Assembly (NCBI GenBank): GCA_040879145.1 | Contig: JBBDKX010000004.1 | Span: forward strand, 3,202 to 47,121 | Direction: 5' to 3' | Source: Candidatus Spechtbacterales bacterium | Lineage (GTDB): Bacteria; Patescibacteriota; Minisyncoccia; Spechtbacterales; 2-12-FULL-38-22 | Length of the DNA: 43,920 nucleotides | Shown here: in pieces, positions 10,470 through 30,830 of the stretch | Position numbering within the stretch: position 1 is the first letter of the stretch | How the letters are laid out: each line of letters opens with the position of its first letter | The notes under the pieces: generated by a model | The model's input: the letters and a program-made list of their open reading frames with translations, nothing else | What the model was told of the DNA's origin: nothing | The model's database searches: none | Position numbers and translations under genes: made by a program

Positions 10470-11150
10470 ATGACTCATAAAACTCACCCACTTAGTAAAA
10501 GATTAGGATATACAAAAGGATGGAATTCCCGTTGGTTTGATAGTAAAAAATATGCTGAAAATGCCCAGCAAGACTACCTTATAAGAGAATATACTCTTGA
10601 AAAATTTAAAAACGCGGGAGTTGCCAGTGTTGAAGTTGAAAGGTTTGCTAATTCAATTTCAGTTATAATATATACTTCAAGACCAGGGTTAATAATTGGA
10701 CGCGGGGGAACAGGAATAGAAGAGGCTAAAAAAGAGATGCACAAAGAGTTGCGTAATAAAATGAGGCGCAGGCACGATGCCAGAGAGCGCGAACAGTTGG
10801 TAGCCCCCGAGATTAGAGTAGAGGTAAGAGAGGTTCGCGACAGCGATGCTCACGCCCGACTCATTGCACTTAACGTAGCAGAACAGCTTGAAAGAAGGAT
10901 GCCTTTTAGGAGAGTTATTAAGAGGTCGCTGGATAGAGTTATGACTAATAAGGAGGTTGAGGGGGCTAAAATATCTGTTGCAGGTCGGCTTAATGGAGCG
11001 GAAATGGCAAGGAGCGAGTTTGTTAAGGAAGGCAATCTACCCCTTCAGACACTACGTGCCGACATAGATTATGCGTATGTACAAGCTTTGACTAAATATG
11101 GAGTGATCGGAGTTAAGGTTTGGATATATAGAGGAGAAAAATTAGAATAA
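10470..11150 (+). CDS. rpsC: Ribosomal protein uS3
   Basis: A 226-residue protein at the mRNA entry channel. The N-terminus THKTHPLSKRLGYTKGWNSR, the KH-type motif GLIIGRGGTGIEEAKK (GxxG in the middle) and the C-terminal domain GRLNGAEMARSEFVKEG are diagnostic. Length is usual. A 61-bp gap to rplP follows, with no obvious element. Confidence 0.98.
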   Translation: MTHKTHPLSKRLGYTKGWNSRWFDSKKYAENAQQDYLIREYTLEKFKNAGVASVEVERFANSISVIIYTSRPGLIIGRGGTGIEEAKKEMHKELRNKMRRRHDAREREQLVAPEIRVEVREVRDSDAHARLIALNVAEQLERRMPFRRVIKRSLDRVMTNKEVEGAKISVAGRLNGAEMARSEFVKEGNLPLQTLRADIDYAYVQALTKYGVIGVKVWIYRGEKLE

Positions 11151-11211
11151 TATTTACATTATAAATGTTGCACAATTGTTCAATCCGTGATATTTTAATA
11201 AGGTTTTAAAC

Positions 11212-11622
11212 ATGCTGTTACCTAAAAAAGTAAAACATAGAAAATGGTGGAAAGGCCGCAAAAGAACGAGTATGGAAAGTCGCGGGACGTATTTGGCATT
11301 TGGGCAGTATGGTTTACAGGTTTCCGAAGGGGAGGCATGGATAACTTCGCGCCAGATAGAGGCATCACGTCGTGCGATAACGAGATATATGAAGCGAGGC
11401 GGAAAAGTTTGGATAAGAGTTTTTCCTGATAAGCCCGTAACTCGAAAGGGTACAGAGGTTCCCATGGGTGGCGGAAAGGGTGCTGTAGATCATTTTGTAA
11501 CTCCTGTATATCCGGGAAGAGTACTCTTTGAGGTAGATGGAGTTTCTGAAGAGATAGCACGCGAGGCTCTTAAAAGAGCAAGTTATAAGTTACCGGTAAA
11601 AACTAAGGTGATAGTCCGCTAA
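11212..11622 (+). CDS. rplP: Ribosomal protein uL16
   Basis: A 136-residue large-subunit protein that positions tRNA in the A and P sites. [16 protein letters not shown], the [14 protein letters not shown]-like block ([24 protein letters not shown]) and the [11 protein letters not shown] loop are typical. Its last two codons, CGC and TAA, lie inside a CCGCTAACGCTCGCAGG stretch, another instance of the stop-associated repeat of this operon. Confidence 0.98.
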
Positions 11623-11641
11623 CGCTCGCAGGAATAAAATT

Positions 11642-11848
11642 ATGAAAGCACAGGAATTAAAGAAAAAATCAAGCGAAGAGTTAAATAAACTACTTAAGGA
11701 TAAAAAAAGCCAGGCAGTAAATTTAAGAATGAATATCGCTAGTGGTAATGTTAAGAATGTACGTGAATTGCACAATATTAAAAAAGATGTAGCGCGTATT
11801 ATCACAATATTGAGAGAGAGAGCTGTCGCTGTTACTACAGAAGAATAA
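11642..11848 (+). CDS. rpmC: Ribosomal protein uL29
   Basis: A 68-residue, two-helix protein at the tunnel exit. [20 protein letters not shown] and the second helix [21 protein letters not shown] match the family. It lies between rplP and rpsQ with gaps of 19 and 8 bp. The order L16-L29-S17 is the standard S10-spc arrangement. Confidence 0.96.
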
Positions 11849-11856
11849 AACTTATT

Positions 11857-12117
11857 ATGACAAACAAAAAAGAGAAAAAAGAGAATACAGTAAACCGAAA
11901 GAAGATGAGAGGTACTGTTGTTTCAAACAAGATGGAAAAAACCCTTGTAGTAGAGGTAAATCGCTTGCTTGAACACCCAAAGTACAAAAAAAGATTTAAG
12001 AAATCAAAAAAATATAAGGCCCACTACGAAGATGGTGAATACAACATCGGTGATAAGGTTGTAATAGAAGAAACAAGGCCTATTTCAAAAGATAAAAGAT
12101 TTCGTGTACTAAAATAG
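11857..12117 (+). CDS. rpsQ: Ribosomal protein uS17
   Basis: An 86-residue OB-fold protein of the 30S body. [37 protein letters not shown] and [20 protein letters not shown] are the expected blocks. A short charged N-terminal extension precedes the core. The TAG stop at 12115-12117 begins a TAGCTCGCTAACGCTCGC motif that leads into the second copy of the 89-bp repeat. Confidence 0.97.
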
Positions 12118-26262: not shown

Positions 26263-26266
26263 AAAA

Positions 26267-26295
26267 TTGACAAATATTCATAGAAAGTTTATAAT
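26267..26295 (+). promoter_or_regulatory. Consensus sigma-70 promoter of the TrmB-type gene
   Basis: TTGACA (26267-26272) and TATAAT (26290-26295) are exactly 17 bp apart, with perfect consensus hexamers. Start would be near 26302, 40 nt before the ATG. Confidence 0.88.
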
Positions 26296-26342
26296 AGGTA
26301 TATATAATGTAATTGGAAGTAGAAAGTAACAATTTTTTATTT

Positions 26343-27128
26343 ATGAGCACAAACCAACTACAACAATTATCAACACACCTGCAAGTTTTAGGATTGCAGG
26401 AAAAAGAAGCAAAGGTTTACGTTGCCTCCTCTTTTTTAGGCCCTTCTCCAGTACAACAGATTGCCAAGCAGGCAGGCATAAATAGGCCCACAGCTTATGT
26501 TATACTTGAGCAACTCGCTGAAAAGGGGCTGGTAAGTGAATCGACAGAAGAAAAGAAGGCAGTATATGTTCCCGAACCACCCGAAGCTCTTGAGCGGTGG
26601 CTTGAAAAACAGGAGAAAGAGCTTGAATTTAAAAAAAGAGAGCTGAAAGAGATGATTCCAAAACTTAAAAATACTCACAGAGAAAACATACCGGATGCGC
26701 CTCAAGTAAGGTTTTACAGGGGCTTGGACGGCATCAATGCCGTGTTGGCGGAATCTTTTAGAAAAGCTAAATCCAAGTCCGAGGTTTATGGCTTTACCAA
26801 TATTGACCGGGTGCAAAAAATATTTCCTAAGTATTTTACTCAGGCCCCCAGTAAGAGAGTAAAAAAGAGTATATCAAGCAAGGTTTTGTACTGGTCTACA
26901 AAAACAGATGAGCCTTCGGATGAAAAATTACTTCGCACTACCCAAAAAATAGATGCGCCCCCAAAGGCCGATATTACTTTGTTTGAAGATCGCGCTACGC
27001 TTCTTACTTATAACGATAAGGATTCAGTAGGTATTGTTATAGAAAGCAAGGATATAGTAGGGGCTTTACGCCAGGTTTTTGAGCTCGCGTGGAAAAATCA
27101 AGATACTAAAGAAGGTGAAGATAAATAA
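26343..27128 (+). CDS. TrmB family transcriptional regulator
   Basis: Start taken at ATG 26343 (MSTNQLQQLSTHLQVLGLQE, 261 residues); the upstream TTG adds hydrophobic residues not seen in the family. Residues 10-75 form the winged helix typical of TrmB: GLQEKEAKVYVASSFLGP, then IAKQAGINRPTAYVILEQLAEKGLV. A coiled region follows (EKQEKELEFKKRELKEMI), then a phospholipase-D-like ligand domain (VRFYRGLDGINAVL). TrmB proteins are common in archaea and CPR. The effector is unknown; the adjacent RNA-rich island is a possible target. Confidence 0.85.
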   Translation: MSTNQLQQLSTHLQVLGLQEKEAKVYVASSFLGPSPVQQIAKQAGINRPTAYVILEQLAEKGLVSESTEEKKAVYVPEPPEALERWLEKQEKELEFKKRELKEMIPKLKNTHRENIPDAPQVRFYRGLDGINAVLAESFRKAKSKSEVYGFTNIDRVQKIFPKYFTQAPSKRVKKSISSKVLYWSTKTDEPSDEKLLRTTQKIDAPPKADITLFEDRATLLTYNDKDSVGIVIESKDIVGALRQVFELAWKNQDTKEGEDK

Positions 27129-27142
27129 TTTGTCACCACAAC

Positions 27143-27171
27143 TTGACAAATTAGGCAATATCTGCTAATAT
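27143..27171 (+). promoter_or_regulatory. Consensus promoter of small transcript A
   Basis: TTGACA (27143-27148), 17-bp spacer, TAATAT (27166-27171), with TG two bases before the -10. The start would be about 27178, the first base of the GACTGTAGC stem. Confidence 0.85.
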
Positions 27172-27207
27172 ATACGCGACTGTAGCGAAATCAAGGAGGT
27201 GTGGTCA

Positions 27208-27276
27208 ATGAAAACATGTAAAGTTTTCCGAAAAATTAGAACACCAAATTCCTCCTTCATGCTACAGTCCCAGTAG
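27208..27276 (+). CDS. Possible 22-residue peptide with sequestered SD
   Basis: ATG at 27208 follows AAGGAGGTGTGGTCA, one of the strongest SD sequences in the window. The product would be a basic 22-mer (MKTCKVFRKIRTPNSSFMLQ and two more residues). The ORF lies wholly inside the hairpins of transcript A, and its SD is paired in the predicted fold, so translation may depend on refolding. It could equally be incidental to a non-coding RNA. Confidence 0.35.
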   Translation: MKTCKVFRKIRTPNSSFMLQSQ

Positions 27277-27293
27277 CATGAAAGGAGAAAAAG

Positions 27294-27308
27294 ATGGGTG
27301 GACACTGA
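27294..27308 (+). CDS. Possible four-codon minigene (MGGH)
   Basis: ATG GGT GGA CAC TGA, preceded by AAAGGAGAAAAAG with normal spacing. It lies directly after the alternative hairpin of transcript A. Such minimal ORFs occur in leader regulation, but chance cannot be excluded. Confidence 0.2.
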   Translation: MGGH

Positions 27309-27371
27309 TATAAAAATCCACGCACAACATCATCAGCTATAGTTAGTTCCTCTCTAAAAGTTTAGTGAAAC

Positions 27372-27426
27372 ACCCCTTTTGCCATGTTGTATTTATTACA
27401 TGCCGGCTGAGGGGTTTTTGTTTTTT
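27372..27426 (+). terminator. Terminator of transcript A
   Basis: ACCCCT (27372-27377) and AGGGGT (27410-27415) close a stem that includes CATGT/ACATG, followed by TTTTTGTTTTTT. Confidence 0.8.
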
Positions 27427-27550
27427 AGTGATATTTATTTTCTAAGTATAAAAAATATTACTATGTACTAAATTTGTAACAAAAAATACACAAAAAATAC
27501 GCTGAAGTACAAGTAAATTGGTTGATTGTTTAAAAATTTGTAAAAAATAT
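27427..27550 (+). other. AT-rich spacer
   Basis: About 120 nt of AT-rich sequence between the transcript A terminator and the next promoter. I see no gene or strong structure in it. Confidence 0.5.
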
Positions 27551-27579
27551 TTGACACTTTTTTAAAAGTATGCTAACAT
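27551..27579 (+). promoter_or_regulatory. Promoter of transcript B
   Basis: TTGACA (27551-27556), 17-bp spacer, TAACAT (27574-27579), with an extended -10 TG. Predicted start about 27586. Confidence 0.82.
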
Positions 27580-27585
27580 GTTGCC

Positions 27586-28135
27586 AATCAGGTTAATATC
27601 CCAATAACTTGATTAGCCCTTTTTATGAGGGACGGGATTCGAACCTGCTCTCTACAATTAAAAGTTGCAGAGAGCATATGGCCATTTCGGTTTTCCGGAG
27701 TTGCTACGCCACGAGGCATGCTTGGGAACAAGTGTCTTGCGAAACAAAAGGAGAGAGAAAGCGACACGCCAAAAAGTAATACAAAAGGACGTTCAGTCGT
27801 TTTCCAAGTTTCATACAAGACACAAAGGCTTGTTGGAAAAGTTGCTTGTCCGACAGGCCCTCAAACATCCGCAGCGGAGGAAGTATTAAGGAGAGAGACA
27901 ATTTTCATATTAGTTTTTTTGTACTTCCTTCGCATCGGCTGTTTGAAGCCAATTATAAGGTTCTTTAGTTAGAGGAAGCGACCCCTCACATGCAATGCAT
28001 GTGAGGGGTAAGCGAAACGCGAGAGTCGCTTAATAATTCCTCTGGGTAGTATCGCCCATTTTATCAAAAAATGGCCTCCTCGCTTCCATCCCTTCACGGT
28101 TTTATGTGAGAGACGATTAAAAGCGATACAAACAA
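27586..28135 (+). ncRNA. Candidate structured RNA B
   Basis: No credible protein gene follows the promoter at 27551. Structures visible: GCTCTCT/AGAGAGC with loop (27648-27675); a three-level stem at 27970-28042 made of AGAGGAA/TTCCTCT, AGCGAC/GTCGCT and an inner perfect CCCTCACATGC/GCATGTGAGGG; and GTATCGC/GCGATAC (28049-28055 and 28123-28129) enclosing CCATTTT/AAAAATGG and CTTCAC/GTGAG hairpins. No terminator follows, so this RNA may continue into RNA C. The first part is antisense to a tRNA-Lys-like sequence. No known RNA family is recognised. Confidence 0.5.
27623..27680 (-). pseudogene. tRNA-Lys(UUU)-like 3' portion, no D-arm or 5' acceptor found
   Basis: On the minus strand, TGCAA-CTTTTAA-TTGTA is an exact anticodon arm with a Lys UUU loop (loop 27664-27658), then 4 nt, then GCAGG-TTCGAAT-CCCGT, a T-arm with one mismatch. 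A discriminator-like A follows a CCCTCAT acceptor strand. No D-arm with normal geometry or ATGAGGG 5' strand is adjacent; instead the anticodon stem is extended to 11 bp (GCTCTCT/AGAGAGC). It may be a decayed tRNA, or a tRNA-mimicking part of the RNA on the other strand. Confidence 0.45.
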
Positions 28136-28188
28136 CAACACTAAATTTAGAGTATATAGATAAGGGTTGCTATTATTTTTGAAAGTTA

Positions 28189-28217
28189 TTTACAAAAAAT
28201 AAGAAACATGTTATAGT
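28189..28217 (+). promoter_or_regulatory. Promoter of transcript C
   Basis: TTTACA (28189-28194), 17-bp spacer, TATAGT (28212-28217). Predicted start about 28224. Confidence 0.72.
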
Positions 28218-28223
28218 TGTAAA

Positions 28224-28680
28224 ACATTTTTGCACCGCTCTCTCAGCAATTCAGCTGAAGTTGGATTTTTGAGAGAGTGGTTAAAGTAGGAAAACCCGGG
28301 TGTGAGCGTGTATGTGAGGGTTCCGTCCGAAAGGACAGGATAAACAAGACACGTAGTCGCGATATAATGCGCACCCAAAGCTTTAGTCACTTTTTCCTGC
28401 AAAAGGAAAAGTAAGGGATGCGGATCCTTGAGCAGAAACCTTCGGGAGCTGAGGCTTTATGAGAAGAGAGATAGCCGACTCTTCACCCAAAGTGGAACCT
28501 GCCAATCTGTATCTTGTATGTATAAGATACAGAGAACTTTCCTTTCCCGATTTCTGGCGGTTCGGGGTAAGCCCTCCATAGAGGGAAACAAAATCGCCAT
28601 CCATTTAACGCAGCACTTATCGCGTACGCGATAAGTGCTGCTACTCTCAACCTCAAACAAGAAGAAAGGAGGTGAGGAAT
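28224..28680 (+). ncRNA. Structured RNA C, 5' part (457-nt leader of the 67-aa gene)
   Basis: Dense predicted structure: CTCTCTCA/TGAGAGAG (28238-28245, 28270-28277); a branched domain closed by GGGTGTG/CGCACCC (28298-28304, 28370-28376) with CGTGT/ACACG and GTCC-GAAA-GGAC, a GNRA tetraloop (28325-28336); CC-TTCG-GG; GAAGAG/CTCTTC; a perfect 10-bp stem TCTGTATCTT/AAGATACAGA (28506-28533); CCCTC-CATA-GAGGG; and a perfect 14-bp stem CAGCACTTATCGCG/CGCGATAAGTGCTG (28611-28640). It ends 40 nt before a strong SD. It may be a large ncRNA or a very elaborate leader. Known large RNAs (GOLLD, ROOL, OLE, HEARO, tmRNA) were considered, but I cannot match it by eye. Confidence 0.6.
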
Positions 28681-28884
28681 ATGAGTACATTAATACTCAC
28701 GGTTGATGATCTAACCGATGAGATTGTTGAAAGAGCAATTTCCGCGGGGTTAGTTAATGAGGAATCTGTAGTGCCAAATGTGGCGATAAAAGATATCTCA
28801 GTTAATGAAGAGATTGTTGATCAAATTAACACAACGCTCAAAAGTGCTTTAAGCTTTCTTGAGCTTATAAAAAAGGTCCGTTAA
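28681..28884 (+). CDS. 67-residue protein of unknown function embedded in structured RNA
   Basis: ATG at 28681 is preceded by AGGAGGT at 28667-28673 with 7-nt spacing, a textbook SD rare in this window. The product is small and mostly acidic (MSTLILTVDDLTDEIVERAI at the start), with two probable amphipathic helices and a basic end (IKKVR). No motif, membrane segment or Cys is seen. The stop codon lies in the loop of a GGTCC/GGACC hairpin (28876-28890). It is flanked by several hundred bases of stem-loops on both sides. It may bind, or be regulated by, the surrounding RNA. Function unknown. Confidence 0.65.
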   Translation: MSTLILTVDDLTDEIVERAISAGLVNEESVVPNVAIKDISVNEEIVDQINTTLKSALSFLELIKKVR

Positions 28885-29260
28885 AGGACCAAAGGGTTAG
28901 CACCTTATATTTTCTGCTCTTATGGACAGTACCTAACGACGCAAGAGCAGCCGACCCTTTTGTTTTTCATTGTTGGAAAATAAAAGGGTCGGAGTGTTGC
29001 CCCTAATTGGGGCCCTTCGGCAAGTACTCTTCTTTAGGGAGAAGGGTCCGGTTTTTGAGGAGATCGCGTTATGCGGTTTCCCTAAACCGCATAACGTCTC
29101 TAGGTTTACCGAAACTAAACCTAATTCACCCCCCGGGGAGAGACCCGCGCGTAGACGCGGATAAGTCTCTCCCCGGCATTAAGTCCTTTCAGTTAGACCC
29201 GATGTACTATTTGTCTGCGTGCGAATGCACAGATAGAAGCACTCGGGTTTTTTTCTTTTT
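28885..29260 (+). ncRNA. Structured RNA C, 3' part
   Basis: After the ORF: an interleaved pairing, GTTAG/CTAAC (28896-28900, 28933-28937) with CTGCTCTT/AAGAGCAG (28914-28921, 28943-28950), that is, an H-type pseudoknot; a domain GAGT/ACTC with TTGCC/GGCAA and CCCC-TAATT-GGGG (28992-29030); a perfect 13-bp stem CGTTATGCGGTTT (29067-29079 with 29084-29096); TAGGTTTA/TAAACCTA (29101-29123); a perfect 12-bp stem CCGGGGAGAGAC (29133-29144 with 29165-29176) holding CCGCG/CGCGG; then a terminator. Such density is far above the background of the window. Confidence 0.6.
29197..29260 (+). terminator. Terminator of transcript C
   Basis: ACCCGA (29197-29202) and TCGGGT (29243-29248) close a branched stem with an inner GTGC-GAAT-GCAC hairpin; a T-rich tract of about 13 nt follows. 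Confidence 0.85.
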
Positions 29261-29346
29261 AACACGGCTGGCGTGTTAAAACCTGTGACAAGGTTTAAAT
29301 AACCTATTAGTAAAAAGACGGTCGTCGCTTAGCTAGTAGGTTATTT
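29257..29346. repeat. Further perfect stems between RNA C and the RNase H gene
   Basis: TTTTAACACG/CGTGTTAAAA (29257-29266, 29272-29281) is a perfect 10-bp hairpin. AAACCT/AGGTTT follows, then AAATAACCTA/TAGGTTATTT (29297-29306, 29337-29346), another perfect 10-bp pair. They may be extra terminators or processing sites. Confidence 0.6.
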
Positions 29347-29374
29347 GAAGGGTTAAAAGCTCAGGGTGAATAAA

Positions 29375-29383
29375 TGATACAAT
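29375..29383 (+). promoter_or_regulatory. Possible extended -10 element of the RNase H gene
   Basis: TGATACAAT ends 7 nt before the ATG at 29391. If used, the mRNA would be leaderless or nearly so, in keeping with the lack of an SD. No good -35 is seen. Confidence 0.4.
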
Positions 29384-29390
29384 ATAAACA

Positions 29391-29837
29391 ATGGCAAAGA
29401 ACTCAAAGAAAAAAATTGAAATTTACACAGACGGAGGAGCGCGCGGAAATCCGGGCCCCGCGGCTTTGGGTGTTGTAATTGGTGCCCCTTTGAACAAGAG
29501 CTACTCAGAGTTTTTGGGTAAAAAAACCAATAATGAGGCCGAGTATGAGGCAGTTGCCTTTGCTTTAAAAAAACTAAAGTCTCTTTTGGGCAAGGACAAT
29601 GTAAAAGACCTGGAAGTTGAAGTTTTTATGGATTCGGACTTGGCAGTAAACCAGCTTAATCATAAATATAAAGTTGAAAGCGAAAACATTATTCCTATAT
29701 TTATAAAAATCCATAATTTGCGTCTGGATTATGGAAAAGTTCACTTTACTCACGTTCCCAGAGAGAAAAATAAAGACGCGGATAAGATGGTAAATATAGA
29801 GTTGGACAAACAAGCGGGAGGCAGTAGTTTATTTTGA
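29391..29837 (+). CDS. Ribonuclease HI family protein
   Basis: A 148-residue RNase H-fold enzyme that cuts RNA in RNA-DNA hybrids. The four acidic catalytic positions are visible: Asp in YTDGGARGNPGPAA, Glu in NNEAEYEAV, Asp in MDSDLAVNQL and Asp in KNKDADKMVN. The motif order matches bacterial and archaeal type 1 RNase H; it lacks the hybrid-binding N-domain. It follows the RNA-rich island and may be leaderless. TGA stop. Confidence 0.92.
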   Translation: MAKNSKKKIEIYTDGGARGNPGPAALGVVIGAPLNKSYSEFLGKKTNNEAEYEAVAFALKKLKSLLGKDNVKDLEVEVFMDSDLAVNQLNHKYKVESENIIPIFIKIHNLRLDYGKVHFTHVPREKNKDADKMVNIELDKQAGGSSLF

Positions 29838-29904: not shown

Positions 29905-30303
29905 ATGGACTGTGGGGAAATAAAGGAAGAGCTTGCCTCGTTCTTTCAAAGGGAGTGCAAAGAAATAGGTTTAACTGATAATTTTGTCACAGGTCATAAG
30001 GTGGGGAGAACTTTTTGGACTTGGAATATCGCAGATACATCTGATTCTGTACGTAGGATAGTTGAGGTAGGTATTTACCCCGATAAAGCCATTGAGGTTT
30101 TAGCAAAAGTATTATCTGCATCCTTTAAGGAAAGATATAGGTCAAATGAGAAAGTTATAGGTGTTTTAAAACTCACTGAAAAATTGGATACAGTTTGGCT
30201 TCAAGATGCTCTGCATAGAGCGGGTAAGTTTGCTCGAAATAACGACCTTTTAGAAATTTCTATAAGTGATGCCATGCCCGGCACATATAGGGACGTACTT
30301 TAA
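29905..30303 (+). CDS. Unknown protein, 132 residues
   Basis: Start ATG 29905 is preceded by AAGAAGGTGGAG, an SD-like sequence. The product (MDCGEIKEELASFFQRECKE at the start) is soluble and mixed alpha/beta, with a Trp-containing segment (GRTFWTWNIAD) and later EKLDTVWLQDALHRAGKFAR. I recognise no family. It stands between RNase H and rnpB and is closed by an intrinsic terminator. Together with the small ORFs of the island it belongs to the only group of genes here with visible SD sequences. Confidence 0.72.
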   Translation: MDCGEIKEELASFFQRECKEIGLTDNFVTGHKVGRTFWTWNIADTSDSVRRIVEVGIYPDKAIEVLAKVLSASFKERYRSNEKVIGVLKLTEKLDTVWLQDALHRAGKFARNNDLLEISISDAMPGTYRDVL

Positions 30304-30338: not shown

Positions 30339-30379
30339 TATATCAAAAACCGCTCCTTTTGGGAACGGTTTTTGATATA
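30339..30379 (-). terminator. Terminator-like hairpin at the 3' end of rnpB
   Basis: TATATCAAAAACCG (30339-30352) and its exact complement (30366-30379) form a 14-bp stem with U-rich 3' side on the minus strand. It separates the convergent 132-aa gene and rnpB. Confidence 0.7.
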
Positions 30380-30830
30380 CTTCGAGCACTATAAGCCGAA
30401 TTCTGTCCTCCTGAAAATTCAAGATGGAGAGTCATTTATCTGGATGCCATGTTGCCATAACACCTCAAGCGGCACTCCCCGTTAAAACGGGGCACGGCCT
30501 TGCACCGGGTGGGGTTTACCACTCCTATATGTCGCCATATCGGAGATCCGCCTTAGGCGGAACTTTTCACCTTTTACCAATGCAAGCATTGGTTAGTATA
30601 GTCTCTGTGGCACTTTCCCTACCCCTCACATGGATCGCCAAACACGAAATATATTTTTTAAATCAACAATTCATGTTCGATGAACCATGTGAGGGGCGGT
30701 TGGTGTTACCAACCACCCACTTCCTCCGACATATGCCGGAGGGGTGTTCGGACTTTCCTCCCTTCGCTAAAGCTTCGGGAGGTAAACCTCCTTGGACAAA
30801 AACGAAGAGCGACCCTCTGTACCCGAAAGT
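30380..30830 (-). ncRNA. rnpB: RNase P RNA
   Basis: Read on the minus strand, the RNA contains GGAGGAAAGTCCG (CR-I, complement at 30749-30761), GGTAACACC, AAAGTGCCACAGAGAC (CR-IV), GGTAAACCCCACCCGG, and near the 3' end GGACAGAATTCGGCTTA (CR-V, P4 3' strand; complement at about 30393-30409). These are the conserved cores of bacterial RNase P RNA, which matures tRNA 5' ends. Length is about 450 nt, large because of a long hairpin with CCCCTCACATG arms. Ends are estimated from the promoter and hairpin. The type appears to be class A. Confidence 0.93.

Follow-up and report, generated by a model that had tools for sequence, protein, structure and literature searches.

A trmB gene and a 2.2-kb RNA island lie between recJ and rnhA

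The window, the whole 43,920-nt stretch of DNA analysed here, belongs to an 847-kb genome (G000) of a CPR-like (Patescibacteria-like) lineage. From the end of a trmB gene (27128) to the start of rnhA (29391) it holds 2.26 kb with no normal-sized protein gene. The first-pass annotation had described an RNA island of about 2.2 kb here, with promoters, terminators and dense stem-loops, and that description holds overall. The features considered below are as follows.

26263..29390, strand not assigned: insertion comprising trmB and the RNA island
26313..27128, + strand: trmB, gene for a TrmB-type winged-helix regulator (PF01978, E 1.3e-14; likelier ATG start at 26343)
27143..27171, + strand: promoter P1 (TTGACA-17-TAATAT, 10/12, TG before the -10)
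27178..27420, + strand: RNA1, predicted short leader RNA ending in a terminator
27208..27276, + strand: mini-ORF of 22 codons, with a Shine-Dalgarno (SD) sequence, AAGGAGGT, at 27193
27371..27418, + strand: intrinsic terminator of RNA1
27551..27579, + strand: promoter P2 (TTGACA-17-TAACAT, 10/12, TG before the -10)
27586..28160, + strand: RNA2, predicted structured RNA (start approximate, 3′ end undefined)
28189..28217, + strand: promoter P3 (TTTACA-17-TATAGT, 10/12, TG before the -10)
28223..29256, + strand: RNA3, predicted structured RNA of ~1.03 kb, whose ends can pair together
28681..28884, + strand: small ORF of 67 codons, with an SD, AAGGAGGTGAGG, at 28666
29196..29253, + strand: terminator of RNA3, from sequence reading
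29391-29837: rnhA
30376-30828, - strand: rnpB

In four genomes of the same order (G003, G004, G005 and G006) and one more of the same class (G030), recJ adjoins rnhA with nothing between them. Because these two genes are neighbours in five related genomes, trmB and the RNA island are extra here; they could have arrived at the recJ/rnhA site either jointly or successively. The same-family genomes fall outside this comparison, the contig of G001 ending beside rnpB and G002 giving no rnpB match, and a search of genome contigs for RNase H returned matches in other phyla only. Two minor features flank rnhA. An imperfect palindrome of ~56 nt (29292-29347) recurs with 88% identity close to the end of contig C38 in the same genome (G000:C38:60177-60232), and the rnhA-rnpB interval contains an orphan ORF of 132 codons (29905-30303) with no match in Pfam or PADLOC and a chance-level match in NCBIfam.

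The PF01978 match bears out the earlier statement that the island adjoins a TrmB-type regulator gene. We rejected this regulator as the sign of a defence system, its PADLOC matches, to Csa3, CasR and similar proteins, being weak and falling mostly in the winged-helix region.

Three promoters and three strongly folded predicted RNAs

The three sigma-70-like promoters with 17-bp spacers that had been placed at 27143, 27551 and 28189 are all present. Only 0.17 promoters of this spacing at 10/12 would be expected, and three were reached in 0/500 shuffles. Direct reading likewise recovers the terminators reported at 27372 and 29197, neither of which was listed by a simple scan that accepted loops of 3-8 only. 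The first, ACCCCTTTTGCC...GGCTGAGGGGTTTTT, is paired in the fold; the 3′ strand of the second can alternatively pair with 28285-28302. A near-copy of P2 lies elsewhere in the same genome (locus L006, G000:C23 ~10968-11900), ahead of a 263-codon orphan gene that is GC-rich, has a hairpin leader and a AAGGAGGT SD, and belongs to no Pfam family.

Measured against dinucleotide-preserving shuffles, the folding z was -4.3 for RNA1, -8.9 for RNA2 and -12.9 for RNA3 taken as 28282-29256. On rerunning both strands, the + strand folded better than the - strand for RNA1 (-4.2/-2.7), RNA2 (-10.1/-6.9) and the whole of RNA3 (-14.6/-10.6), as expected because RNA uses G-U pairs. The strongest structured run in the 0.32 Mb scanned, mostly from this genome, was 28301-29501, which ranks above rnpB. 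Many perfect stems had been noted by eye, and examples of 12-16 bp are found at 27981-28009, 28610-28641, 29067-29096 and 29133-29176. Very probably, then, the 2.2 kb yields three strongly folded RNAs that carry tiny genes only.

Two observations on RNA2 stand apart from these statistics. Its stem at 27981-28009, CCCCTCACATG / CATGTGAGGGG, is found again inside rnpB (30623-30695) and in a terminator-like hairpin elsewhere in the genome (G000:C35:13596-13623). Antisense to it, 27632-27680 on the - strand looks like a tRNA 3′ half, with a CTTTTAA loop and a GGTTCGAATCC arm; its best match, a tRNA-Arg of the same genome, was too weak to build on.

Small ORFs exceed chance in RNA1 and RNA3

SD-led ORFs of at least 20 codons number two in the island, against 0.07 expected in shuffles (p 0.005); for those of at least 60 codons, of which the 67-codon ORF of RNA3 is one, 0.004 were expected. 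The earlier statement that the island has no recognisable protein gene is thus right for normal protein genes and fails for these ORFs of 22 and 67 codons, which exceed chance. No SD-led ORF was found on the + strand of RNA2. The 67-residue protein gave a single weak match of 27 residues among 286 genomes, viral contigs and phages, and no credible family in Pfam, NCBIfam, PHROGs or PADLOC. RNA3 may accordingly serve as a structured message, as a non-coding RNA or in both capacities.

For RNA1, folding of successive lengths predicts a co-transcriptional switch at the SD of the mini-ORF. In the first 98 nt the SD is predicted to be paired (0.85-1.0); at 123 nt most of the SD would be released by a competing hairpin, 27249-27265 with 27273-27289. 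The 153-nt transcript would divide about evenly between both forms, and once the RNA is complete the SD would be mostly open. With its SD, mini-ORF, competing helices and terminator, RNA1 is reminiscent of leader-peptide attenuators; unlike these, it is followed by an independent promoter rather than immediately by a regulated structural gene.

Other families of the class show a similar layout downstream of trmB

Homologues of trmB occur in 49/112 genomes of the class, the best identity to the window's TrmB being 39%. Among 18 such loci read further, structured runs of at least 500 nt lie downstream of trmB in 10; the 8 with no structured run include all of family f16 and G004, from the same order as the window. 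In 20 control loci centred on rnpB, structured runs were mostly rnpB itself, with a few elsewhere. A forward promoter of 11-12/12 lies 354-599 nt after the trmB stop in 9/18 loci, where shuffling predicts 0.013 per locus; in 7 of these 9 it is accompanied, at a distance of 78-171 nt, by a divergent promoter that also scores 11-12/12. Non-coding pieces of the related islands fold with z of -4.4 to -14.4, and coding controls with -0.2 to -1.4. Many loci carry, on the reverse strand of the stretch after trmB, an SD with a mini-ORF of 3-12 codons (MVW, MSMGVGY, MASPGGGR). In one (G129), trmB is oriented away from the RNA promoter.

When the features defining an island are taken from the other genomes, the window has a trmB homologue at its head, a promoter less than ~600 nt away and a long structured non-coding stretch, with P1 and P2 at 10/12 and promoters elsewhere at 11-12/12. 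As a separate short unit with an SD and a mini-ORF, RNA1 stands after trmB and before the long RNA; such a unit lies on the + strand here, as in G327, and on the reverse strand in most others. The closest parallel in order is G327, which runs trmB, P1, SD and MFW, terminator, P2, hairpin-rich RNA, small ORFs, Zn-ribbon, basic protein, and so shares trmB-P1-mini-ORF-terminator-P2-structured RNA with the window.

In a tree of TrmB, with island labels assigned by the author beforehand and the window counted as island-bearing, the island-bearing proteins cluster (4 changes against 9.3 in shuffles, 0/500 as low); the window's TrmB falls at the base of this cluster with weak support (85/45). The island DNA itself gave only promoter-length or repeat matches in 93 related genomes, phages and plasmids. 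Judging from trmB homology and layout, the window's island is likely, though not proved, to be a member of this trmB-linked group.

Cargo of the other islands

Tiny SD-led ORFs lie between hairpins in other islands, and two small protein families recur. A small basic protein (GGAxxxKKGxRGYxRxR), present in 7/142 genomes, is found inside the trmB islands of five of them (G129, G089, G015, G101, G084); in G043 it adjoins a broken trmB. A Zn-ribbon family, present in 6/335 genomes, is part of the trmB island in G075, G108 and G327. In G135, G152 and G218 it adjoins the basic protein, and the DNA read there contains no trmB; these three belong to family f66 (L128/L141, L142 and L143, respectively), where the pair has strong promoters nearby.

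A hairpin near the RNA 5′ end is common to four genomes of family f38 (G046, G129, G089 and G110). In an alignment of these four sequences on a hand-set structure, both partners differ in 4/15 pairs, against none in slid controls, which is supportive, though not conclusive, of covariation. Searched among 335 genomes, a model of this hairpin returned those four and one borderline match, and none in the window. The window's genome gave no hit for the Zn-ribbon, the small basic protein or the f38 hairpin; such cargo is present in some islands only and hence does not define them all. Hairpin modules are duplicated within locus L075 and also common to different loci, and some islands have lone tRNAs nearby. 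At the end of one island (L084:6604-6729, G075), the 3′ end of a tRNA-Arg is duplicated no more than 55 nt downstream of the gene, which could be an attachment-site scar.

Comparison with known elements

As the first-pass annotation had proposed, the island was compared with Rfam. At both gathering and loose thresholds cmscan returned nothing credible, with no match to OLE, GOLLD, ROOL, HEARO or another family, in keeping with the absence of their hallmarks noted by eye. A tmRNA was also discounted, as ARAGORN and Rfam were negative on the island and the genome has its own tmRNA at another locus (L103). In its RNAs of ~0.6-1 kb with dense stems and their own promoter and terminator, in an uncultivated lineage, the island does resemble OLE, GOLLD, ROOL and HEARO; it differs in its lack of an Rfam match, its small ORF with a strong SD and its place in a trmB-linked island.

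Integron cassette arrays resemble the other islands in having a strong promoter and small variable SD-led ORFs with hairpins between them. In contrast to such arrays, the islands have trmB, and no integrase was seen next to them on reading; the window, moreover, has no such array. The window's regulator shares the PF01978 domain with TrmB sugar regulators, but its gene lies beside a cargo of structured RNA and small ORFs rather than a sugar transport operon. A literature search found no paper joining 'candidate phyla radiation' with 'TrmB', and nothing surfaced on such loci.

A proposed trmB-linked unit making structured transcripts with tiny ORFs

The evidence fits best with the 2.2 kb being the part of a trmB-linked unit that is transcribed, into highly structured RNAs with tiny ORFs in them, a reading to which we give a probability of about one half. 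A doubtful alternative would make RNA2 and RNA3 large RNAs with no coding role at all, acting as scaffolds or a multimeric RNA like OLE, GOLLD or ROOL, with the 67-codon ORF incidental. The z of -12.9 and end-to-end closing helix of RNA3, the position of the ORF within the structure and the lack of an SD-led ORF on the RNA2 + strand would all suit such RNAs; the strong SD ahead of an ORF of a length expected 0.004 times, the SD-led small ORFs of other islands and the failure to match Rfam do not.

The island might instead derive from a mobile or cassette-type element, as its cargo or as what is left of it, with the hairpins serving as DNA sites of recombination or transposition. Its insertion at recJ/rnhA, the differing chromosomal places of trmB islands, the duplicated and common hairpin modules, the lone tRNAs and the recurrence of the 29292-29347 palindrome in the genome are consistent with mobility. 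DNA hairpins, however, leave unexplained why + strand folding is favoured in all three RNAs, and no phage or plasmid matched the island, with nothing useful from PHROGs, so we consider this origin unlikely. A neutral, non-functional insertion rich in inverted repeats by chance would fit the lack of homologues and the fast turnover of island sequence; set against the dinucleotide-preserving shuffles, the strand bias, the promoter and SD statistics and the recurrence after trmB in other families, it is very improbable.

If the 2.2 kb is indeed the transcribed arm of a trmB-linked unit, TrmB would control strong sigma-70-type promoters that drive hairpin-packed transcripts, a role suggested by the adjacency of its gene. 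RNA1 would act as a short leader in which the SD starts out buried and is later released by the competing hairpin, before the transcript ends at the terminator. RNA2 and RNA3 would be densely folded and probably long-lived, with RNA3 doubling as the message for the 67-residue protein and its hairpins segmenting and protecting that message. We further propose that island cargo turns over fast, which would be why the window's copy shares layout and not sequence with the other islands.

The first-pass annotation had supposed that a CPR lineage makes one or several large structured RNAs here, perhaps undescribed, beside a TrmB-type regulator. Fold z, strand bias, promoters, the Rfam result and the similar stretches elsewhere agree with this, and its exclusion of protein genes is the part that does not stand. 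Similar hairpin-packed stretches after related regulators point to an undescribed kind of locus. More tentatively, it is possible that the window belongs to a regulated island of structured RNA and microproteins, found in many families of one Patescibacteria class and with no described counterpart, in which TrmB drives fast-evolving transcripts acting both as RNAs and as messages for tiny proteins. That tiny, gene-dense CPR genomes keep kilobases of structured RNA beside a dedicated regulator, across families, suggests a real function missed by annotation. The recurring layout makes this testable, offering targets for metatranscriptomes, promoters for TrmB binding and tiny proteins to seek in proteomes.
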